Shown here: positions 7,690 to 39,613 of the stretch, in pieces
Position numbering within the stretch: the first letter of the stretch is position 1
How the letters are laid out: each line of letters opens with the position of its first letter
Assembly: GCA_944325415.1 (NCBI GenBank)
Contig: CALUZW010000012.1
Coordinates: 1 to 64,000 of the forward strand
Direction: 5' to 3'
Length of the DNA stretch: 64,000 nucleotides
Origin: an uncultured Bacteroidales bacterium
Lineage (GTDB): Bacteria; Bacteroidota; Bacteroidia; Bacteroidales; UBA11471
Translations under genes and position numbers: made by a program
The notes under the pieces: model-generated
The model's database searches: none
Seen by the model: the letters and a program-made list of their open reading frames with translations, nothing else
What the model was told of the DNA's origin: nothing

Positions 7690-7729
7690 AAACGAGCAGC
7701 GGTCGCCGTATGGCGACCGCTGCTCGTTT
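7690..7729 (-). terminator. Long perfect hairpin ending the DUF5723 operon
   Basis: An 18-bp perfect inverted repeat (7690-7707 with 7712-7729, 4-nt loop) lies 16 bp past the stop of the minus-strand gene ending at 7746. A CTTTT run follows it on that strand. Confidence 0.8.
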
Positions 7730-7745
7730 ATGAATGGAAAGATTT

Positions 7746-9185
7746 TTACATGTTCTCGGGAACACTGTTGTAAACTTTCTCTTTTTTCAGCCTGGGGTCT
7801 TTGCCCAAGGGTATGGAGAGACCGAAGTTGATGTTTGCAGCCAATTCTCCAAGAGGAATGAAGTCGGGCGTTACCCGCATGGTCGATATGTCGGCACCGA
7901 TAAAAAGTGGACCGAAGTTGAGAACGGCACCGAAAGAGTTGGCCAGGTTTGATACCGTTCCGTTAATACCAAGCATAAACCATCTGAAAGGTTTGAGGTT
8001 GAGACTGCCCATGAGCGATGTGTGGGTATTGTTTTTGTAAAAGCGTGTGGTCGAGAGAAGACCTACCGATATATGATTATGCAACAACTGGTATTCGGCT
8101 CCGAATGTGAGGGTCGGATTAAGCCATGTCATGCGCTTCTCCGGGGCATCTCCTTCTCTGAACTCAATCAGGGCTTTGAGGTCGTCGGTCAGTTCGTCGA
8201 CCTGGTCGTCGAATACATTTTGAGATTCTCCGTTTTCGTCGGAATAGTCATCGCTGCCGATGCCGGTGAATCCGTCGTAGATGACCTCGCCCTCAGGGGT
8301 AACACCTTTCAGGTTTTTGTTCCAGGAGATAAATCCTATATCGGTAATGGCCATGGATACGATGAGGTTTTCGATGGGCGAGTAGGTAACACCCAGGTCG
8401 ATGCCTGCACCGCCGCCGGCGAGGCCGAGGTTATTGGTGTTGAAATCAAAGCCCGATATTTCTCCGGTTTCTTCGTCGATTTCAAGTTGGGCTCCGGCAC
8501 AAGACATGTCGACGACGCCGTAGCTCTCGATTTTCCATTGCTCTTCGCTCATGGTGAGGGTCAGCCGTTCAAAGTGAGCGTCGGCCTGGGCACCGCCGAG
8601 CAAGGCTTTCAGTTTGGCACCCACTGTCCATTGGTCGTTGATGTGGTGGGCGTGCCCCAGAGCGATTTCTACATAAGCGTCGGCGTAGGCCGATATATCT
8701 TTCAGGTCGTATTGGGTGACGGCACCTTCTTCACTTCCGTTTTTCAGGAAGCGGAAGAGGTCGCCCGGCAATGCCATGGATATGCTGCTGTGCAGGGAGA
8801 TGTCGAATGAGTTGAAGCCGTTCCACTTGTGAAAACCGAAAGAGAGTATCGAAAGGCCAAGATCGGTGTTGAGTACGTTCCGGTTTTTCAACTTCTTGTC
8901 AAATTCTTCGGCCGAGATAGCCGGGCTGAGGAATGTGTTGAGTTTATCTCCCTCGGAAGGATATATAAAGGTCGAATAGTTCAGGTCCGAACTTACGCTC
9001 ATCGATAGGTTGCCCATTGCAGGCAAAGTAAAATATCCTCTCTCAGGAACCAGCGCCGGGTTGAGTTGATGGCGCAACGGCGCACGTTCGAGGAAGTAGG
9101 CATTGCTCAATGGCTGTGCCGTTATTGTCGGAGTAATAATGCAGAGCAGAATGGCTGCCCAAATGTATTTTATATATGATTTCAT
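7746..9185 (-). CDS. DUF5723 family outer-membrane protein
   Basis: The 479-aa product has a signal peptide (1-23, ending TITAQ), a conserved N-terminal region (LNPALVPERGYF, GNLSMSVSSDLNYSTF) and alternating hydrophobic strands through to the C-terminus. This fits the Bacteroidetes DUF5723 family, predicted outer-membrane beta barrels related in outline to PorV/FadL-like proteins. Its function is unknown. It starts 24 bp after the lipoprotein gene that ends at 9210, so the two are probably one transcript. The family call rests on sequence resemblance; the barrel prediction is inference. Confidence 0.8.
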   Translation of the reverse strand: MKSYIKYIWAAILLCIITPTITAQPLSNAYFLERAPLRHQLNPALVPERGYFTLPAMGNLSMSVSSDLNYSTFIYPSEGDKLNTFLSPAISAEEFDKKLKNRNVLNTDLGLSILSFGFHKWNGFNSFDISLHSSISMALPGDLFRFLKNGSEEGAVTQYDLKDISAYADAYVEIALGHAHHINDQWTVGAKLKALLGGAQADAHFERLTLTMSEEQWKIESYGVVDMSCAGAQLEIDEETGEISGFDFNTNNLGLAGGGAGIDLGVTYSPIENLIVSMAITDIGFISWNKNLKGVTPEGEVIYDGFTGIGSDDYSDENGESQNVFDDQVDELTDDLKALIEFREGDAPEKRMTWLNPTLTFGAEYQLLHNHISVGLLSTTRFYKNNTHTSLMGSLNLKPFRWFMLGINGTVSNLANSFGAVLNFGPLFIGADISTMRVTPDFIPLGELAANINFGLSIPLGKDPRLKKEKVYNSVPENM

Positions 9186-9209
9186 AAGATTTTATCGGGT
9201 TATATCGGT

Positions 9210-11195
9210 TTATAAAGAATCCAAGTCCATACTTATTTGGGCAACTCTGGCACTGAGTTTCATTTGCAGGTATTGGGTGCTGCGAAGGGCTCCGCTTTGC
9301 AGTCCTTCGGCCAGGTCTCCTGCCACACTGTATTGCAGATGGGTAAGCGACTTTAAGGCATCTTTTTCTTTTTCGGTGAGTCGTATGATGATTTTCCCGG
9401 TCGAAGCTGTCGGGTCGACGAGGCTCAAATCGGTAGTGCCGGCAATGATTCCTTTTCCGTTCTGGTCGGCGTCGAGAACTTCGAGCCCGATGTTTTTGAG
9501 TATACGGAAGTATTTGGTATTCTCTGCATCGTCGTTGGTGAGTCTTTCGTCGGCCGGCAGATTGTGGTATTCCTGGGCTGATATCTCTTGAAGCGGTGAA
9601 AGAGTAAATTCCAGATTGAGGGGCAGTGTGGTGGCGTAGTTGGCGATGATGGCAGCCTCTTTCATGGTGAGGTCTTTGAAAATATCATCGATACCCCCTT
9701 CTATTTCGGAGAAGCTGATGGCAAAATTTTCTCCAAATTCCAGCGGTACGGTAATGTCGCAGTCGGCCTGCACGAGGCTGCTCTGGTTGTTGAGCAGGGC
9801 GATGTGTACCGATTCTTTATCGGTCTGAGCCGAAAGGCTCGCCTCGATAGATGACGGTATTTGTGTGTTGAGCAGGGCGGGCAGGTCGCCTTGTACCCAG
9901 GTATAGAGGGTGTCGTTGTACCAGAATGTTTTCTTGTCGGCATCGACCCAGTCGGTTGTGGGTGCCTTTTGAGAGATATAGAGGTTGTTTTCCTTGGGTA
10001 TCATGGTCTGGTTGGCTCTGTCGTACGTGGCCTCTTCGATGTAGATGGGGCTGATGACGATAGGTTCCGATGTGATACTTTCGTCGTTTTCATCTTTCGG
10101 CGTTACGGAGAGTGAGGCATTTACCGGTATGCCCATGGGATTGGTGGCGCTGAAACGGATGTAGGGGTTGGCCAGGTCGAGCGTGATGTCGTTGCCTTCG
10201 AGGAAGTCGGGCATGGAACCCAACTCTATGGAGAAGGATTCTTGTGCCGAAGCATCTATGATACCGGTGATGCGGGTGATTTCGAGCTCTTCGATGGCAA
10301 AGTCGGTGCGAACCTGCGGCTGTTGTGCAAGGGTGGTTCCGGGGCCGTTTAGGGCAATGTCGACCGAAGCGTTTCCGTCGAGGGTAAACCGATTGTTGAG
10401 AATGTTGAGAATGTTTTCGCCATTATCGGGAATGAGTTCAAAATTGTTTGACCCGTCGGGTTGTATATCGCCGCCGCACAATCCGTAGATGTCAATTGTA
10501 ATGGAAAATGTTCCCCTTTCGGCTTTTTTGAGGGGAATGGTGAGTTTGTGGTCTTTGACATACAGCGGGTTCCCGTTGTCATCGGTGTCGGTCAGTGTGG
10601 CATCGCCGATATTGCCCGATGCCGAGAGCATCAGCATCTCGGGAAATGCTATCTCCATATCCGATAGTGAGAGTGTGTAGTCGGCCGGACCTTGTGTGGC
10701 AAAGAGCTCGGTCGTGAAAGTGAGTACGGCTCGTTTGGGAGCATCGAACATGATGGTGTCGATGCGTTTTACATCTTCCGAGACAATCAGATTTGACGGG
10801 TCGACAGGTACATCGGCCGACAGCAGGAGCGGAATGGTGGCGTCGTAGGTAATACCGGCCTCGACAGCGGCGGCTATCTCTTCGGAAAGTGCAATTTCCG
10901 TAGGTTCTATGTGGGGCGTAAGTCCGTTGCTGGGGTCGATGATAACACTTCGCATGGCGGCAAATTCGGTTGAAGTCTCTGTCGACTCGGAAATATAATA
11001 GATGCTGTCGTTGTTGATTTTCAGGTTATCATCGGTACTGATGAGCTTGGATAGCGTGAATCTGTCGGTTTCGCCGATGGGAATCGATATTCCGTTTTCG
11101 GCAATCGTTACATTCATGTCGATTTCCTTGTCGTAATCTTTATCTACGCAACCAGTAAAGAAGACAAGTAAACAGGGGATTAGAAGCTTTTTCAT
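9210..11195 (-). CDS. Large uncharacterised lipoprotein
   Basis: The 661-aa product begins with a type II signal peptide whose lipobox is FTGC at about residue 16, followed by VDKDYDKEIDMN, a negatively charged stretch like the lipoprotein export signals that send Bacteroidetes lipoproteins to the surface. The body is mostly beta, with repeated blocks of about 100 residues (SIPIGETDRF, SLSDMEIAFPEM, ITIDIYGLCGGD, TVPLEFGENFAISF), but I recognise no named domain. It precedes the DUF5723 outer-membrane gene by 24 bp, so the pair may form a lipoprotein/barrel complex. Function unknown. Confidence 0.75.
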   Translation of the reverse strand: MKKLLIPCLLVFFTGCVDKDYDKEIDMNVTIAENGISIPIGETDRFTLSKLISTDDNLKINNDSIYYISESTETSTEFAAMRSVIIDPSNGLTPHIEPTEIALSEEIAAAVEAGITYDATIPLLLSADVPVDPSNLIVSEDVKRIDTIMFDAPKRAVLTFTTELFATQGPADYTLSLSDMEIAFPEMLMLSASGNIGDATLTDTDDNGNPLYVKDHKLTIPLKKAERGTFSITIDIYGLCGGDIQPDGSNNFELIPDNGENILNILNNRFTLDGNASVDIALNGPGTTLAQQPQVRTDFAIEELEITRITGIIDASAQESFSIELGSMPDFLEGNDITLDLANPYIRFSATNPMGIPVNASLSVTPKDENDESITSEPIVISPIYIEEATYDRANQTMIPKENNLYISQKAPTTDWVDADKKTFWYNDTLYTWVQGDLPALLNTQIPSSIEASLSAQTDKESVHIALLNNQSSLVQADCDITVPLEFGENFAISFSEIEGGIDDIFKDLTMKEAAIIANYATTLPLNLEFTLSPLQEISAQEYHNLPADERLTNDDAENTKYFRILKNIGLEVLDADQNGKGIIAGTTDLSLVDPTASTGKIIIRLTEKEKDALKSLTHLQYSVAGDLAEGLQSGALRSTQYLQMKLSARVAQISMDLDSL

Positions 11196-11338: not shown

Positions 11339-11375
11339 ATGGTCTACCGCTTGTTAGACATAGGCGGTAGACCAT
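11339..11375 (-). terminator. Terminator hairpin downstream of the 169-aa membrane protein gene
   Basis: A 12-bp perfect inverted repeat (11339-11350 with 11364-11375) follows the stop at 11395. On the minus strand it is followed by TTTTATTTC; on the plus strand it is followed closely by a long T run (11387-11396), so it could work in both directions. Confidence 0.7.
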
Positions 11376-11394: not shown

Positions 11395-11904
11395 TTAAAT
11401 GATTTGTGCTGCCAATGCTTCGGCCTCATTATCGTGATATTGTTGGGCTTCTCCGACGGCCTGATATTCAAACGGGACAAATTCCATAATCTGTGCCGTA
11501 GCGTATTGTTTGTCGCTGCTGATATAGATGTCGAGTCGTATGTCGGACGATTTGTTGTCGCTTCTTTTTATGTTTTTCAGTTGCTCGAAGTTCTTTTCTT
11601 CGAGAATGTTCTGTACACGTTTCATCTCGCTTTTATTGAAGGTAAGGCGGTGCAACGAAACCTTTTTGCCGCTTTCCCTGCAATAACAGACTTTCTTGCC
11701 CATGAAAAGTTTGATAAGCCCGAAGATACCCAAGGCCACACCGAGCATAAAGAGGCTCATGCTTAGCACAGAGTTTCCGTCGGTGAGCGAGCCGGCATAG
11801 AAGGCTGCGGCTGCGGCGATGACAACGATGATGCCTGTTGTGGAAAGGCTGTTTTTGGAAGTAATATAAGGGTTCTTATTGTTTTGTTTTTGAGTGGTTT
11901 CCAT
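11395..11904 (-). CDS. Small two-helix membrane protein, unknown function
   Basis: The 169-aa protein has a short polar N-terminus rich in Asn and Lys, two transmembrane helices (about 24-40 and 48-66), and a soluble C-terminal domain of about 100 residues starting with KKVCYCRESGKKV, whose two cysteines are close together. There is no signal peptide, and the C-terminal domain is probably cytoplasmic. It stands alone between the lipoprotein operon and the ABC exporter operon. I do not recognise the family. Confidence 0.65.
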   Translation of the reverse strand: METTQKQNNKNPYITSKNSLSTTGIIVVIAAAAAFYAGSLTDGNSVLSMSLFMLGVALGIFGLIKLFMGKKVCYCRESGKKVSLHRLTFNKSEMKRVQNILEEKNFEQLKNIKRSDNKSSDIRLDIYISSDKQYATAQIMEFVPFEYQAVGEAQQYHDNEAEALAAQII

Positions 11905-32194: not shown

Positions 32195-35100
32195 TTATCG
32201 GGCGAGGTCGAGTTTGATGGTGATGCCGATGTCGCTGTTGAGGGTGGGGTAGCTGCTCGACGAAATGAGCGGCGTGGAGATTTGCAGGTCGTAGTAGGCT
32301 TGCAGGGTGATGTAACGGCTGAGTTTGTACTCGGCCGAGTATTTCATGTTGATAGACTTGTTGCCGGCCGTAGCCTGGGTATAGTTCTGCTCGATGCGGC
32401 GAATGAGGGAGTGGGTCTTGGCAAACGAGAAGTCGCCCCGCAGGTTGAGGTCGTTGCTGTATGTGCCCTGTTTCCCGCCCTTACCCGAGAAGAAGCCTCG
32501 CAGCCCGGTAATCTTGTAGCCTACCCCTACGGTAACGTCCTGGGTGATGGCCTCGACCAGTTGCACCGAGGAGATGCTCAGGTTGAGGTTGCGGCTGTTT
32601 TTATAGGCGAGGCTGCCCGACAGGTTGTTTTTGAGGGTGAAGTCGATGCCCAGCAGCGGAGAGAAACTCTCTACTATCGTTACCGACGAGATGTCGTAGG
32701 GCGACGAGGGGGTGGGAAGCCCCGTCTGTGAGTCTTTGACAAAGCCCATGTCGCCTCCCACACCGGCCCAGTTGAGGTAGGACGAGAAGCTGGTTACGTT
32801 GTAGGTGCATTTGTAGGCGTGGGATATGATGAAGCTCTTGAAGTGTTTCTGCATCCGTTTCAGCCTCGACAGTCCGTCGTAGGAAACTTTCCAGTTGGGA
32901 ATGAGCTGGCTCCACGAGGGGAAAGCCGTGAGTTCTATTTCGTTGGCGTCTTGCCCGGTGTAGGCGGCGATGAAGGCCGGTATCATGACATCGGCCGAGC
33001 TGGTGTTTATGCCTCCGTTTATACGGTTATAGGGTTGTCCGGCCAAGTTGCTTTCGCCTAAGAAGTCGGCGGCCGGATAGAAGGTCTTTGCGTAAAGACT
33101 TTCCAGGCGGTCGGCAACGATTTGCCGGTTTTGCAGGAAGCGGTCGAACGCGTCGGACTGGTATCCGTTGTCGGGCGACAGTCTCTTCATCGAGGTCGAT
33201 ATGGCCATGTGGGTCATGGTGAAGTTGCCTCCCTGTATGGTGGGTTTGTTGTCGTACATGAAATAGATCTGGTCGTTGTGGCTCTGGCTGCGGGCGATGT
33301 TGAGGGTGATTTTAAACCCTCTCAGCGGTTCGAGTACGATGTCGGTCTGCAAGTCGTTGGTGCGGTTGTATATGGCCGGACTGATGAGCGAGGAGTCCTG
33401 GGTCATGAGCCAGTTGTTGTCGACGGCCTGGTCGATGTAGCCGGTACCCACGGTGGCAAAGGCAAAGCCCAGACCCGGAGCCATGGCTCCGTAGGCCGAC
33501 GACTGTCCGAAGATGTCGCCTATCGATGGTTCGAACGACGGCAGGGTCATGGCGCGGGTGTTGCTGAACTGCACGTTGACACTGCGCAGCATCATGGCAA
33601 AGCGGGTGGCATAGAGCCCGGCCTGGTACCACTTGTTCTCTTCGCGCCCTTTCCCCGGCAGTACGGTAACGATGACACGTTCGTCGGCGCGGGTCTCGAT
33701 GCGTATCGTGTTGGCATCGACGACCTTGTATTTGATGGGGTAGGCTTCGCCTTTGAGAGTCGCCGATACGACGGGTTTCTTGCTGTCGAGGTTGTGGCGC
33801 ACGAGGGTCGATGTGTCGGCACGCAGGGTGACGGTGCGCTGGTAGCGGTTGCGCTTCTGCGGGGTGCGGCTGTTGTTGCCCCGGTTGTTGAATTTCTGGT
33901 TGACCGATTTCAGGAACTTCGACTTGTTGTAGAGGCTCTCGAAGTTGAAACGTCCGTTTACCGAGAGGCGACCCTGGTTGCTGATGGAGTTTCCCACCGA
34001 GGTGGTGTCGTCGATGGTGGCGCCGCGGTCCCAGTTATAGGTGGCGTTGTAAGACGAGGTGAGGCTTATCCAGTTGAGCGAGGGTATGTTGTTGAGGGGC
34101 ACGTTGAGGGTGGCGTTGAAACTCTGCTGGTATTCCCACGGGGTACCGAAGTGGCGCAGGCTGTTCTTTACCGAGTCTTTCCACACCGTATATTCGTCGG
34201 CAAAGAGGCGTTTGTTTACGGCTCCCGACGGCTCTTCGATGCGGGCGTTGGTGGCGGTCGAGAGGTTCATCGAGAGGCTTTGCAGGAGATTCCACTGTAT
34301 GGCAAACTGGCGGTCCCACAGGAAGCTCTTGCTCACCGACACGGGCAGCGTTACATCGCTTTCGTCGATGCTGCGTAGTTGCTGCTCGTAGTAGTAACGC
34401 GATATGCTGGTGCCGAACGAGAGATTGTTGGGCAGGTAGTTGATGCTCATCTTTTTGAGAACGTTGAGGCTCTTCGATTTCGACTTTATCTTTCCGAAGG
34501 GCTGCCACGGCTTGATGAGGGGCGAGTAGCTGTATATGAGGTTGCCGTTGTAGGTGTTGGTGTTTTCGTAGGCGGTGGTCGGGTCGTTCTCGTGCTGCTT
34601 GTTCTGGGCGTAGCTGAACGTGAAGTTACCCGGGTCGTAGGGCATGGGGTTTTTGCTCTTGATGTCGACCTTGAAGCCCGAGAGGCTGAAACTCTTCACG
34701 GTCGACTGGGTTATCGAGAGCTGTTTTATCGAGTCGCGCGCGGCATCGTTGGCGGCGGCTTCGAGGGCATCGGAGAGCAGTATGTCCTGGTCGAGCGGGT
34801 TGTATTTGGGCAGCGATTTCTCCATCGTGTAGGAGTAGAAAATCGGCGCCTTGATTTTGGCTTTCTCGGGGAAGAAGCGGCCCAGGTCGACCATGGCGGC
34901 GAAGTTGTACTGGTAGAGGTCGTCGAGCCGACGCTCGCTCAGGCTCTGGTCGATGCCGCCGAAACCGGTCGTCTCTACCAGTCCGCTCATGTTGAGGGTG
35001 GCGATGTCCGACACGGCCAGGTTGAGGTTGCCCTTGGCAGCCCAGCCGCCCTCCTCGTTGAAACCTTTGAGGCGCAGCTCGTTTATCCACACGGTGGCAC

Positions 35101-38100
35101 TCTTCTTGCGGCCCGAGTTGTTGCGCACGCCCACGAGTATGGTTTTTACGTTCGAGAGCGAGGGGTTACCCATGACGGTGATTTTGTTGGTCGGCTTGTC
35201 GGGGTCGTAGCTCGAATAGGGTGTGGTGCTGCTCACGCCCGAGCCGTTGGTGTTCTGGGCGAGGTTACGCTCCTGTTTCAGCGAGGTGAGCAGTTCGAGC
35301 GGGAAGTCAAACATATTGGCCTCGGGCCACACCTTTTCCTGGTCGGCCGAGCTGTATGTGTTGTAGCGGCCGGCCGGGGTGAGCTGCAAGGGTATCTCGT
35401 ATTCATAGTAGTTGTTGCAGTAGTCCGAACCCAGGCGAATGAATACCGACAGTTCGCCGCTTTTCAGGTCGGTGTCGTCATCGATGAGTTGCTCGGCGTG
35501 GGTAAACATTTGCAGGCTCTTGTAGTTGCGCATGTCGGTGCCGGCGCTTTTGTAAATGGCCCGGGCATTCTTCGAGGGCAGGTCTCTGATGGTGAGCGAG
35601 ATGGCCTGTTCGTTGAGTTGGGTAATCTGCGACTGGTCGGGCGAGATGATGCGGGTTACGCCCGGGGGGAGTACATAGTTGACGGGTGTCTGGCCGGCGT
35701 TTTCCTCTATGTTGACCACCGACACGTCGATGTCGCCCTCGGCGGGGGCATTGCTGCTGCCGCTGATGTCGGAATGCAGTTTGTACTCGTAGGTGCGCCA
35801 TTCGCCGCGCACCAGTTCGAGGGTGGCAAAGCGCAGGTGGGTCTCTTTGTTGAAGCCCGTGAGGAAGATGCGGGCAAACCGTATGCTCGAAAAGTCCTGT
35901 ATCGACCCGATGGTCTGGCGCGGCTCGTGCGAGGCGTCTTCGCTGTCATCGCGCAAGGGTATCTTGAACTGGTACCACCGCACTGTCGACGACTCGCCGT
36001 TGCGCAGCGGCACCGTTACCGTGCGCACGTCGGTAATGTAGTTGCTGCCCACCTGCAAGGCCTCGGGGGTGATTTTCACGGCATACTGGTAGTAACGCTC
36101 GTACTCGTCGAGGGTGTTGTCCTGGTTGATGTCTTCGACGTCGGGCACGCTGCGCGACGACTGGTAGTAGCGGTCGTCGACCTCGTCGGCCGAGAGGGAG
36201 TTCCCCTCGGTGCCGTTGTAGTATTTGTACCGGGTGAGAATGTCGGTCTCTTCCTCGTTGAAACGTTCGCTCAGGAAGTACTGGTAGTTGTCGCGGGCGG
36301 GGTCGTTCAGCGGGGAGTGCGGGTCGGCCAGCATGCGGTTGAGCGCCGTACCTGAGAGCTTGGCTCGGAGTCCGGCGACAAATTCCTGATAAGAGGAGAA
36401 GCCCGCTTCGTCGTCGTCGGAGAGCCCGTCGAGACCCACGTCCTGCCGCACACGGGCGCCGCTGCTGTTGTCGAAGGCGTAGGTGAGCGACTGCTGCCGC
36501 GAGACACGCCCCCACACCGTCGTGGAGAGGTAAGAGGTATCGTTGTTGATGGGAAGGCCGTTTTCGTAGGATTTCATGCCGTCTTTGAGAATGTCTTCCG
36601 ACACCTCTCCGAAGTTGAAGTAGAGCATACCCCCCTTGTTGCTGCCGTCTTCGTTGTAGAGGAAGGGGTCCATGAGCCAGAATTGCAGGTACTCGATGTT
36701 GGAGTTGTCAAAGTCGGTGATATCCATCTTGCGCATGATGCCTGCCCACCGCTTTTCGGGGTTGAGCAGCCGCCCCTCTTCGTCGATGTTCTGGGCGTCG
36801 GTGTTGTAGGGTCCGTGCTCTTGCGGGTAGTAGGAGAGGTTGAGTACCTGCATGACCGACGACTCGCCGTAGTTAAGTTCCTTGTTGGGGAACACCTCGG
36901 TGTATTCTACCTCGCGCACGTAGTGGTTGGAGAGCTGTTCGAGGTCGTTCTTGATGTGGGCGGGCGTGGCCGACGAGTTGCGCTGCGTAAAGATGCGGTC
37001 GATGTAGTACCAGGCCAGCAGGGCCCGGTTGCGGCCGTAGTTGAGGTCGTTCGACAGCGACGACTCCATGAACATCGACGGCGTGGCCGACAGTGTCCAT
37101 GAGTAGGGTGTGCGTATGTCGATGGTCGTTTGCGAGCCCTCGAAGTCGTCGAGATAGGAGAGCGTGGAGGTATTTTTCTTCTCTCCCGGAATGAGTTGGG
37201 CAAACTCGGCGGTGAGCGACAGCCGCGACGGAGCGGTGGCTGTAACGGTGGGTATCTTGTTGAGCCACGAGGTGAGCCACTGGAACTCGGTGTTGTAGGA
37301 GGTGTTGATGCCCCACAGCGTGTTGTTGAGTACTTCGCTGCCGAGGTTTACCTTCTCGGTGAGGGCTTTCTCTTTCATGTGCATGAGGGTGAGCCCCAGG
37401 TTGAAGTCGGGCGTGAAGGCGTAGTTGAGGTCGAGGCCCACCAGCGTCTTGCGCTGCATGCTCAGGCTCTGGTTTTCGAACGAGACGTCGATGCTGGTGC
37501 CCGAGTCGATGTAGCTCTGGTTGAGAATCGTTACCACACCCATGTTGTAGTCGACCGTGTAGTCGACATTCTCGGTGAGGGTTACGCCGCCGGCGGTTAC
37601 CCGCACCGACCCGCGTGGAATGTTGAAGGCATTGAGGTGTATCTCGGAGCTGTACGAGGCCTGGTATTCGCCTTTGAGAATAAACTTGTTCTTGTCGGCA
37701 AACTGCTTGGCCACGGTGAGGGTCGAGTCGTAGAGCTCCTGGTAGGCGTAGCGTGAGGCGTCGGGGGTGCCGATGGCTGCCTGCAAGTGCGAGCCGAACG
37801 GCTCTACGACCGGGAAGATGATGCGTCCCGACGACGGCAGTACGGTGTAGCCCGACACATAGTCGAAGATACCGTCGGAGTTGGTCTCCTGGTTGTTGTC
37901 GAGCCGGTCGAGGTTCATCACCTGCAAGAGGGTCTTCTCCTTGATGTTGCCCACCGGCAGGTAGGCGGTGTTGGTACCGGCCGAGTCGTTCTGGTAGTAG
38001 ATGTTGAGGCGGAAGTTTTCCTGCTCTATCTGGTAGGCGCCCAGCGAGTAGACGTTTTTCATCATCAGGTCCCAAATCGGTTTCTTGTTGGTGACGGTCG

Positions 38101-39613
38101 AGCCTTTCAGCATCTTGACGTAGAGGCTCTGTTCGGTGTCGGTGATGTCGGTCGAAAACTCTCCCACCTGGTAGGTCTGTCCGTTCTTGGTGTACTCAAA
38201 GGCCACGGCAAGCACTTCGTCGCTCGACAGTTGGCTGTTGAGCGAGACGTAACCGAGCTGGCTGTTGAGGGTATATTCCGACGACGACAGCAGGCGGGCG
38301 CTCTCTATCTTGGCATAGTCTTCGCCACCGTAGATGCCAAAGGCTTCGAGGGGGCTCAGCGCTTGCGTTACCAGACTGATGTAGCGGGCGTCGGGGTAGG
38401 AGGCGATGATGTCGTTGTAGAGACTGTTGGCCGTGTTTGAGGGATATTGTGCGCCGGTGGTCGACCAGTGGTTGCTGGCCAGGTTGTCGGCCTGGGTCTC
38501 ACCCAGGTCGGCAAAGGCCACGATGTTGCGGGCGTTGTCGTAGGAGCCCTGCTTGTTGGTGACCCATATCTCGATGCGGTTGATGGTGATACCCGATGTG
38601 ATGTAGGGCAGCCGCGAGATGAAGTTGTCGTAGTTGTCGCGGAAGTAGTGGGCCAGGAAGAAGTGCCGGTTCTGGTCGTAGGCATCGACTCCGATTTCAA
38701 ATTCGGTGGTCTGGCTGCCGCCTTCGCTGCTCACCGTCTTTGAGTCGGTCTCCTGCTGCGACACGAGTCCGGTAACGGTCAGCTTGCCAAATTGCAGGGT
38801 CGTTTTCAGACCGAAGAGCGAGGTACCGCCCCGTATGAGCGACGAGCCGGTGGTCATGCTTATGTTACCTCCCTCGATGGTCTTGATGATTTGGTCTTCA
38901 TCGCCTTCGTATTTCAGACTCATCTTTTGGGCGTCGAAGTCGAAGGTGGCGTCGGTATTGTAGGTCATGTTGAACCCTATCTTAGTACCTACCGATGCGT
39001 TGATGTTGGCCTGAATCTTTTCGTCGAAGTCGAAGTAGGTCTTCTTCCGGGCGCTTTCGGCCAGGGCGGGGTTGTCGATTTTGTTGGTAACGAGGCTGAG
39101 GGTGAGGCTCATCGACCCGCTGGTTTTGAGCCGCACGCCACCCGGGCCGAATACCTTGTCGAGGGCCTGTATGTTGAACTGCATGTCGAGGAAGTCAAAC
39201 TCGGTGCCCCCCTTGGCAAAGTTCTCGGCGTTTTTGGCCCGGTAATATTCCTGCATCGATTTTTTGAGCGAGTAGTCGCTGTACTCGTCGGCGGTGAGCA
39301 TGAAGGGGGTCGACACCTCCATGTCGCCCACCTTGGTGCGTATTACATAGCAGTTGGTCTTGGCATCGTACTCGACTTCGGTGCGGACGTTTTCGGGGGT
39401 CTTCAAGTCGGCCGGCGGCAGCCGGTGCAGGTCGTCGAAGGTCTCTATCGAGGTTTTGGCTACGGGGAAGCGCGACGGGGTGCGCGGTGTGGTATCGCTT
39501 GCGGCGGCCTGTTGCCCCGGCGGGGGGGCAGCTTGTGATGAGGCTCCGGCGGAATATAGACATATTCCGCTTATAACCAGAATGATATATATGGCAAAAA
39601 GTCTCTTTCTCAT
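32195..39613 (-). CDS. sprA: Type IX secretion outer-membrane translocon SprA/Sov
   Basis: The 2472-aa protein has the size expected for SprA (about 2400 aa), the giant 36-strand outer-membrane barrel through which type IX secretion substrates leave the cell. A signal peptide (1-28) is followed by the conserved N-terminal region (GGTEFDFLDMQFNIQALDKVFGPGGVRLKTSGS; SSLIRGGTSLFGLKTTLQFGKL) and long stretches of alternating strands ending in LGITIKLDLAR-type barrel closure. It lies 60 bp downstream of ruvA on the same strand; ruvA-sprA adjacency is also known from other Bacteroidetes. The plug gene for this channel is nearby at 41305-42549. Confidence 0.95.
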   Translation of the reverse strand: MRKRLFAIYIILVISGICLYSAGASSQAAPPPGQQAAASDTTPRTPSRFPVAKTSIETFDDLHRLPPADLKTPENVRTEVEYDAKTNCYVIRTKVGDMEVSTPFMLTADEYSDYSLKKSMQEYYRAKNAENFAKGGTEFDFLDMQFNIQALDKVFGPGGVRLKTSGSMSLTLSLVTNKIDNPALAESARKKTYFDFDEKIQANINASVGTKIGFNMTYNTDATFDFDAQKMSLKYEGDEDQIIKTIEGGNISMTTGSSLIRGGTSLFGLKTTLQFGKLTVTGLVSQQETDSKTVSSEGGSQTTEFEIGVDAYDQNRHFFLAHYFRDNYDNFISRLPYITSGITINRIEIWVTNKQGSYDNARNIVAFADLGETQADNLASNHWSTTGAQYPSNTANSLYNDIIASYPDARYISLVTQALSPLEAFGIYGGEDYAKIESARLLSSSEYTLNSQLGYVSLNSQLSSDEVLAVAFEYTKNGQTYQVGEFSTDITDTEQSLYVKMLKGSTVTNKKPIWDLMMKNVYSLGAYQIEQENFRLNIYYQNDSAGTNTAYLPVGNIKEKTLLQVMNLDRLDNNQETNSDGIFDYVSGYTVLPSSGRIIFPVVEPFGSHLQAAIGTPDASRYAYQELYDSTLTVAKQFADKNKFILKGEYQASYSSEIHLNAFNIPRGSVRVTAGGVTLTENVDYTVDYNMGVVTILNQSYIDSGTSIDVSFENQSLSMQRKTLVGLDLNYAFTPDFNLGLTLMHMKEKALTEKVNLGSEVLNNTLWGINTSYNTEFQWLTSWLNKIPTVTATAPSRLSLTAEFAQLIPGEKKNTSTLSYLDDFEGSQTTIDIRTPYSWTLSATPSMFMESSLSNDLNYGRNRALLAWYYIDRIFTQRNSSATPAHIKNDLEQLSNHYVREVEYTEVFPNKELNYGESSVMQVLNLSYYPQEHGPYNTDAQNIDEEGRLLNPEKRWAGIMRKMDITDFDNSNIEYLQFWLMDPFLYNEDGSNKGGMLYFNFGEVSEDILKDGMKSYENGLPINNDTSYLSTTVWGRVSRQQSLTYAFDNSSGARVRQDVGLDGLSDDDEAGFSSYQEFVAGLRAKLSGTALNRMLADPHSPLNDPARDNYQYFLSERFNEEETDILTRYKYYNGTEGNSLSADEVDDRYYQSSRSVPDVEDINQDNTLDEYERYYQYAVKITPEALQVGSNYITDVRTVTVPLRNGESSTVRWYQFKIPLRDDSEDASHEPRQTIGSIQDFSSIRFARIFLTGFNKETHLRFATLELVRGEWRTYEYKLHSDISGSSNAPAEGDIDVSVVNIEENAGQTPVNYVLPPGVTRIISPDQSQITQLNEQAISLTIRDLPSKNARAIYKSAGTDMRNYKSLQMFTHAEQLIDDDTDLKSGELSVFIRLGSDYCNNYYEYEIPLQLTPAGRYNTYSSADQEKVWPEANMFDFPLELLTSLKQERNLAQNTNGSGVSSTTPYSSYDPDKPTNKITVMGNPSLSNVKTILVGVRNNSGRKKSATVWINELRLKGFNEEGGWAAKGNLNLAVSDIATLNMSGLVETTGFGGIDQSLSERRLDDLYQYNFAAMVDLGRFFPEKAKIKAPIFYSYTMEKSLPKYNPLDQDILLSDALEAAANDAARDSIKQLSITQSTVKSFSLSGFKVDIKSKNPMPYDPGNFTFSYAQNKQHENDPTTAYENTNTYNGNLIYSYSPLIKPWQPFGKIKSKSKSLNVLKKMSINYLPNNLSFGTSISRYYYEQQLRSIDESDVTLPVSVSKSFLWDRQFAIQWNLLQSLSMNLSTATNARIEEPSGAVNKRLFADEYTVWKDSVKNSLRHFGTPWEYQQSFNATLNVPLNNIPSLNWISLTSSYNATYNWDRGATIDDTTSVGNSISNQGRLSVNGRFNFESLYNKSKFLKSVNQKFNNRGNNSRTPQKRNRYQRTVTLRADTSTLVRHNLDSKKPVVSATLKGEAYPIKYKVVDANTIRIETRADERVIVTVLPGKGREENKWYQAGLYATRFAMMLRSVNVQFSNTRAMTLPSFEPSIGDIFGQSSAYGAMAPGLGFAFATVGTGYIDQAVDNNWLMTQDSSLISPAIYNRTNDLQTDIVLEPLRGFKITLNIARSQSHNDQIYFMYDNKPTIQGGNFTMTHMAISTSMKRLSPDNGYQSDAFDRFLQNRQIVADRLESLYAKTFYPAADFLGESNLAGQPYNRINGGINTSSADVMIPAFIAAYTGQDANEIELTAFPSWSQLIPNWKVSYDGLSRLKRMQKHFKSFIISHAYKCTYNVTSFSSYLNWAGVGGDMGFVKDSQTGLPTPSSPYDISSVTIVESFSPLLGIDFTLKNNLSGSLAYKNSRNLNLSISSVQLVEAITQDVTVGVGYKITGLRGFFSGKGGKQGTYSNDLNLRGDFSFAKTHSLIRRIEQNYTQATAGNKSINMKYSAEYKLSRYITLQAYYDLQISTPLISSSSYPTLNSDIGITIKLDLAR

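Follow-up and report, generated by a model that had tools for sequence, protein, structure and literature searches.

A lipoprotein–DUF5723 gene pair of the Bacteroidota as a candidate outer-membrane complex built on a FadL-type barrel

A stretch of 64,000 nucleotides from an uncultured Bacteroidales bacterium (GenBank assembly GCA_944325415.1, contig CALUZW010000012.1, positions 1 to 64,000; hereafter the window) encodes a lipoprotein and, directly downstream, an outer-membrane protein of the family DUF5723. The pairing of these two genes is genuinely characteristic of the order and extends across the phylum Bacteroidota. The two products probably constitute one outer-membrane complex, in which a surface lipoprotein would be docked through its N-terminus on a barrel of the FadL type, resembling BamG and BamH in arrangement and, as far as tested, distinct from them in sequence. 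The pairing and the homology of the two genes are documented by genome comparison, and structural models predict the fold and the docking.

DUF5723 was detected in 251 of the 295 genomes sampled from the order, in one to four copies per genome, and a homologous lipoprotein lies directly upstream in 174 of the 181 loci that were selected by their DUF5723 gene (L061 to L240 and the window). Because these loci were picked for DUF5723 alone and nevertheless share the arrangement, it is more than a product of chance. The loci comprise 100 from order-wide DUF5723 matches, which were taken by hand roughly by rank with some skipped (including contig starts) and hence form a non-random set leaning to high scores, and 80 named loci obtained with a DUF5723 alignment, the two groups having some genomes in common; another 20 were fetched around lipoprotein matches without a listed DUF5723 neighbor. 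The closest relatives among the named loci carry the labels Porphyromonadaceae and Coprobacter, which points to the order Bacteroidales. On a frame basis and with all 201 loci included, 192 of 199 DUF5723 frames, situated in 198 loci, are paired in this way (frames outnumber loci since DUF5723 at L220 is split over two reading frames). The gap to the first ATG has a median of 19 bp and is at most 60 bp in 187 of the 192 pairs, and 170 pairs are left once DUF5723 proteins more than 85% identical are removed.

The linkage also holds in the reverse direction. Iteration of the lipoprotein profile used frames from these loci, and the search covered all 5151 frames of the loci and the window rather than the upstream frames alone. 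Among the 295 genomes it found 94 places in 74 genomes, a limited reach that is explained by the quick divergence of the lipoproteins. A listed DUF5723 gene follows within 6 kb at 68 of these places, and within 1.5 kb at 61 of the 68. Twenty regions were fetched to cover 24 of the remaining 26 places (all but two weak ones), and DUF5723 is directly downstream in 17 of these regions; two of the remaining three (L257 and L260) run off the contig end, and the third (L258) holds the lipoprotein alone. The co-occurrence across genomes that was proposed as a check in the original prediction is thus strongly in favor of the pair within the order. Co-duplication was also observed, with two or three pairs each in the genomes G002, G108, and G291. 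In one locus, a second family lipoprotein (L107:2874-4523) stands upstream of the one adjoining DUF5723, which represents a tandem duplication.

Across the phylum, DUF5723 was detected in 179 of 296 sampled genomes. A lipoprotein is located just upstream in 39 of 60 DUF5723 loci outside the order (14 of 20 and 25 of 40), a hand-picked set in which several lipoboxes were judged by eye and one locus (L305) was counted as lacking the lipoprotein after a failed frame assignment. The family profile matches 22 of these 39 lipoproteins (E < 1e-3). Their lengths range from short forms of 175-199 residues to long forms of up to about 930 residues.

The pair of the window and the elements around it are as follows.

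9210-11195, minus strand: lipoprotein gene, 661 amino acids; an open reading frame with a predicted all-beta product, a distant relative of DUF4621 and of PDB entry 4H3W (BDI_1231)
9186-9209, minus strand: intergenic gap of 24 bp, from stop codon to ATG
7746-9185, minus strand: gene for the DUF5723 outer-membrane protein, 479 amino acids; PF18990, predicted FadL-superfamily barrel
11061-11150, minus strand: lipidated Cys16 and the conserved post-cysteine segment, residues 16-45 (CVDKDYDKEID...), delimited by conservation and by a gain in model confidence with the barrel
9054-9062, minus strand: Asn-Pro-Ala motif, DUF5723 residues 42-44, from the alignment of relatives
7691-7728, minus strand: terminator-like element, a perfect 17-bp inverted repeat with a 4-base loop and a T-rich tail, which begins 17 bases beyond the stop codon of the DUF5723 gene
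11339-11375, minus strand: terminator-like element, a 12-bp inverted repeat that has a T-rich tail and separates the lipoprotein gene from the gene upstream of it (11395-11904)

These open reading frame coordinates confirm the layout described originally, namely a 661-residue lipoprotein followed 24 bp on by DUF5723. Because T-tailed hairpins stand on both flanks, the pair looks like a two-gene unit of its own; neither hairpin was reported by a simple terminator scan. The motif TAnnTTTG, which is the promoter motif of Bacteroides type, was not found within 200 bp before either start. The source genome, in an assembly that is 83.3% complete, contains one match for each of the two genes.

The lipoprotein begins with the signal peptide MKKLLIPCLLVFFTGC, its lipobox ending at Cys16, and continues with VDKDYDKEID. 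It has no Pfam or NCBIfam match at E ≤ 1, DUF4621 (PF15414) included, and that family is matched by two of its 61 aligned relatives at E ≤ 0.1. Identity to the window protein is mostly 17-25% among aligned members and 40-50% for four of them, and the family spans about 200 to 1280 residues in the listed loci of the order (median 582). A model of the protein, built from the 61-sequence alignment, has a mean predicted local distance difference test (pLDDT) score of 87 and a predicted template modeling (pTM) score of 0.74 and is almost wholly beta strand, as was guessed when internal beta blocks were first proposed. The family profile A3 matches 4h3w_A over the C-terminal half (E 5.5e-19) and finds only 4H3W below 0.001 among PDB sequences; the model superposes on the same chain with a fold Z of 21.9 over 302 of 313 residues. 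Jelly-roll proteins, such as virus capsid proteins, were dismissed as relatives, since their Z values of at most 8.4, far under that of 4H3W, reflect common beta arrangements. The 4H3W entry is BDI_1231 of Parabacteroides distasonis, labeled a putative secreted protein. By profile and modeled fold, the window lipoprotein belongs to a DUF4621/4H3W superfamily, although it is about twice as long as 4H3W/DUF4621 and lacks a Pfam match. At a Parabacteroides locus (L206), the lipoprotein upstream of DUF5723 is a full-length DUF4621 protein (E 7.7e-117); on such sequence grounds, DUF4621 is a short form of the DUF5723 partner, of which the window protein represents a long and distant form. In the closest named relative (L161:466-2205), the lipoprotein frame of 579 residues is without its N-terminus, perhaps owing to a frame error in the assembly.

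The downstream protein belongs to DUF5723, with a PF18990 score of 332.6 bits against a cut-off of 26.8 (E 6.2e-99) and coverage of the full profile. Apart from a weak Porin_4 match, it has no other Pfam match at E ≤ 1, including none to Toluene_X/FadL (PF03349), and the DUF5723 profile finds nothing among PDB sequences at E ≤ 10. The modeled barrel, taken from the joint model of the two proteins, is nevertheless predicted to be that of the FadL superfamily, the fold shared by FadL, PorV, and BamG. The closest matches are the transporters FadL, TodX, and CymD (Z 19.9-22.6; CymD 22.6, FadL 1t16 21.5), followed by chains F of the type 9 translocon, which we take to be PorV (Z 19.1-19.2), and by chains of the β-barrel assembly machinery (BAM) complex that are presumably BamG (Z 17.4-19.0), whereas other barrels reach 14.8 or less. 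The alignment with FadL-family folds starts at about residue 22. Sixteen strands of at least seven residues were counted in the barrel part, compared with 14 in the FadL family, and some of them may be extramembrane. Residues N42 and P43 are invariant in 26 aligned relatives, and N42-P43-A44 are all invariant in 13; the same three letters occur as a motif in FadL, and a FadL “delta NPA” mutant is among the fold matches. The NPA motif has a role in FadL.

These resemblances could indicate that the pair imports hydrophobic compounds, the lipoprotein capturing or channeling a lipid-like ligand and the barrel releasing it into the membrane in the manner of FadL and TodX. The best fold matches are indeed transporters, and the residues of the Asn-Pro-Ala motif vary little if at all. 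On the other hand, importer activity is not known for PorV and BamG, which have the same fold, the divergence and length range of the lipoprotein would be odd for a ligand-binding partner, and none of the genes that recur next to the pair stood out as metabolic. Import is regarded as unlikely, though as the runner-up among the possible roles.

Some DUF5723 proteins have long C-terminal tails. Pfam identifies TSP_3 repeats and an OmpA domain in L065, L083, and L112 and a SPOR domain in L073, and TSP_3 and OmpA tails were read by eye in L101, L105, and L116. Barrels with such tails are probably tied to peptidoglycan, and because these domains come after the barrel, the C-terminus of DUF5723 should be periplasmic. 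The peptidoglycan-binding type of these tails suggests that periplasmic contacts matter, which is compatible with a lipoprotein that is retained on the periplasmic side, where it would plug or gate the barrel or serve as its tether; this is improbable, however, in view of the strong enrichment in the lipoprotein family of the acidic signature of exported lipoproteins. The reported signature consists of at least two acidic residues among the six that follow the lipidated cysteine (PMC12578637). The window lipoprotein has three in VDKDYD, and 159 of 180 family members carry at least two, compared with 12 of 72 other lipobox frames from the same loci (Fisher p 7e-28). The 180 are the members in which the cysteine was located (16 of 196 had no locatable cysteine), and the 72 controls were selected with a stricter lipobox than the family and are frames rather than proven genes. 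Because of this signature, the lipoprotein is probably exported to the surface, and the family-wide enrichment bears out the idea of an export signal in the original prediction. An aromatic-acidic motif after the cysteine is likewise present in 153 of the 180 members and in two of the 72 controls, and the conservation of this pair of residues is more than an export signal alone would explain.

Structure prediction suggests what else the segment may do. When the lipoprotein was modeled alone, the mean pLDDT for residues 11-20, 21-30, 31-40, and 41-50 was 43, 51, 71, and 71, respectively; modeled with the barrel, it was 69, 89, 87, and 82, whereas in most other blocks of the lipoprotein it was equal to or lower than in the single model. 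The joint model used 48 lipoprotein alignment rows and the single model 61. Because the segment gains confidence beside the barrel and most of the rest of the protein does not, the N-terminal segment is predicted to dock on the barrel. The joint prediction proposed as a check of the pair thus favors contact, in that the post-cysteine segment orders beside the barrel in a model with an overall pTM of 0.62. The same ordering of an export-type N-terminus, together with the tight gene pairing, would also fit a device for lipoprotein export or flipping, in which DUF5723 helps its partner, or surface lipoproteins generally, to cross the outer membrane. A general flippase, however, needs no single conserved partner alongside it, and the pore of FadL-type barrels is plugged, which leaves little likelihood for such a device.

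Several observations weigh against the favored reading of a docked outer-membrane complex. Seven of the 181 DUF5723 loci in the order are without the lipoprotein (L070, L073, L077, L081, L099, L213, and L227, of which L070 and L227 are near a contig end), and one family lipoprotein (L258:1987-3579) has no adjoining DUF5723 despite 3.2 kb of downstream sequence. DUF5723 was not found in 44 of the 295 genomes, incomplete assemblies included, and thus seems not to be needed everywhere. Beyond the order, the expected co-occurrence held in about two thirds of the sampled loci and failed in 21 of 60; these 21 are mostly weaker DUF5723 matches, and four (L267-L270) end in long tails that were read as OmpA-like. 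The 17 of the 39 phylum lipoproteins that the family profile does not match rest on position and lipobox. As for the two-protein model, its pTM of 0.62 leaves the position of the lipoprotein body relative to the barrel insecure. The chains were also joined covalently by reading through stop codons, which can favor contacts, and the alignments of the two models differ; the junction is at the lipoprotein C-terminus, distant in sequence from the post-cysteine segment. Seven of the top 25 inter-protein pairs by mutual information fall in the lipoprotein N-terminus, compared with 1.6 expected when kinship is ignored, and this covariation is confounded by shared ancestry and was given little weight. 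The loci without a partner and the modest pTM could mean that the two genes merely share an operon and are co-expressed without mutual binding. The two-way linkage, the co-duplication, and the N-terminal ordering in the joint model speak against co-expression alone, to which only a slight probability is assigned.

No conserved third partner emerged from the comparison of the 181 neighborhoods, in which the best of the other neighbors occurs in just 31 loci. This neighbor is a protein of about 920 residues encoded upstream on the same strand (e.g., L143:1738-4623), and it lies at most 125 bp from the lipoprotein frame in 27 of the 31 loci. A single example was scanned, which gave a DUF3352 match and beta-propeller matches. 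A relative of this protein is present in 191 of 291 genomes of the order, and none was found in the source genome.

The following mechanism is put forward as a supported proposal and not as a result. DUF5723 would be a FadL-superfamily barrel with its pore, to judge from the fold, filled by the N-terminal stretch. The lipoprotein would be exported to the cell surface, where its conserved N-terminal segment would dock on the barrel; the pillar of beta domains would then stay outside the cell with DUF5723 as its membrane anchor. The pair would thus work as BamG and BamH do, without being BamG and BamH by sequence as far as tested. The “distinct surface complex” of the original prediction is well supported in silico as a complex of lipoprotein and barrel; its surface placement, like binding and role, is what we infer. 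The likeliest role, if not quite a probable one, is that of a housekeeping module for the structure or assembly of the Bacteroidota outer membrane. Structure or assembly is favored over uptake because the pair is widespread, has one to four copies, lacks a conserved metabolic neighbor, and contains a lipoprotein whose body varies freely; moreover, the wide presence of DUF5723 in both the order and the phylum is easier to reconcile with a core function than with one tied to a particular substrate. There is a small chance, somewhat greater than that given to lipoprotein export, that the role is something other than structure or assembly, uptake, or lipoprotein export.

Kept side by side in almost every locus sampled from the order and found repeatedly across a major phylum of gut and environmental bacteria, the pair stands as a strong candidate for one of the core components of the cell envelope there. 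DUF5723 and DUF4621, both of unknown function, would gain a joint and testable role, and the orphan structural-genomics entry 4H3W would gain a context. A literature search, mostly outside subscription journals and with preprints excluded, found no paper on DUF5723, PF18990, PF15414, or BDI_1231 and, within the same limits, only papers that seem unrelated for DUF4621 and 4H3W. The literature found on complexes of lipoproteins with FadL-type barrels in the Bacteroidota concerns, among other subjects, the BAM complex and a toxin receptor (PMC12578637, PMC12611786, and PMC12853789). The receptor of BSAP-1 was set aside as a candidate for DUF5723, since the paper on it describes it as likely belonging to the FadL family PF03349.

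Among known systems, the original prediction pointed to SusC and SusD and to PorU and PorV. SusC, a large protein, is a TonB-dependent transporter, and SusD is helical. The DUF5723 pair shares with them the tandem of a lipoprotein and an outer-membrane barrel, so that the parallel stood as regards layout and failed as regards fold: DUF5723 has a FadL fold and its lipoprotein partner is all beta, and membership in the SusC/SusD system was ruled out by the Pfam family and the FadL-type fold. The parallel with PorV proved closer than was claimed in that the FadL-type fold is common to both, but DUF5723 is not PorV by sequence, and its lipoprotein partner is not PorU-like by family search. The kinship with PorU/PorV is one of fold only, and membership was rejected. 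The control genome of Bacteroides ihuae has DUF5723 and no match to SprA_N, and for this reason the pair seems to be independent of the type 9 secretion system. The source genome does have the translocon gene sprA, about 21 kb from the pair: a frame of 2472 residues (32195-39613, minus strand) gives two matches to SprA_N, the domain of the type 9 translocon protein SprA/Sov (E 4.6e-188 and 5.1e-17).

The closest counterpart is the BamG-BamH couple of the Bacteroidota BAM complex, which is described for B. thetaiotaomicron, P. gingivalis, and F. johnsoniae in the BAM literature cited above. There, the FadL-type barrel BamG, described as FadL/Toluene_X, binds the surface lipoprotein BamH, the conserved N-terminus of which is wedged between two BamG strands. 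The same anatomy, in which the N-terminus of a surface lipoprotein docks on a FadL-type barrel, is predicted for the DUF5723 pair, whereas no sequence similarity between the two couples was detected; the DUF5723 protein has no Toluene_X match. No BAM chain was matched by profiles A1 and A3 among PDB sequences, the presence of BAM entries having been confirmed for the fold library only. The sole Toluene_X match in the source genome is a frame of 538 residues (G000:C11:28154-28960; L281), which has no PDB sequence match at E ≤ 0.01 and did not serve to identify the BamG of this genome. A further putative operon of a FadL-type barrel and a lipoprotein, BamG2-BamH2 (Bt1785-Bt1786), is reported to consist of homologs of BamG and BamH and was not detected by its authors in their proteomics data; its layout is like that of the DUF5723 pair, which profile searches, as far as they reach, place in a separate family by sequence. 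If the docking is as proposed, the DUF5723 pair would be another example, differing in sequence from the first, in which a FadL-type barrel holds a surface lipoprotein by the N-terminus. A more ambitious conjecture, less likely than not at present, is that the pair gives the Bacteroidota, in addition to PorV and BamG, a third FadL-type machine, phylum-wide and largely core, in which a DUF5723 barrel and a fast-diverging lipoprotein pillar would serve the assembly or integrity of the outer membrane, possibly with a DUF3352-type link to the inner membrane in some lineages.

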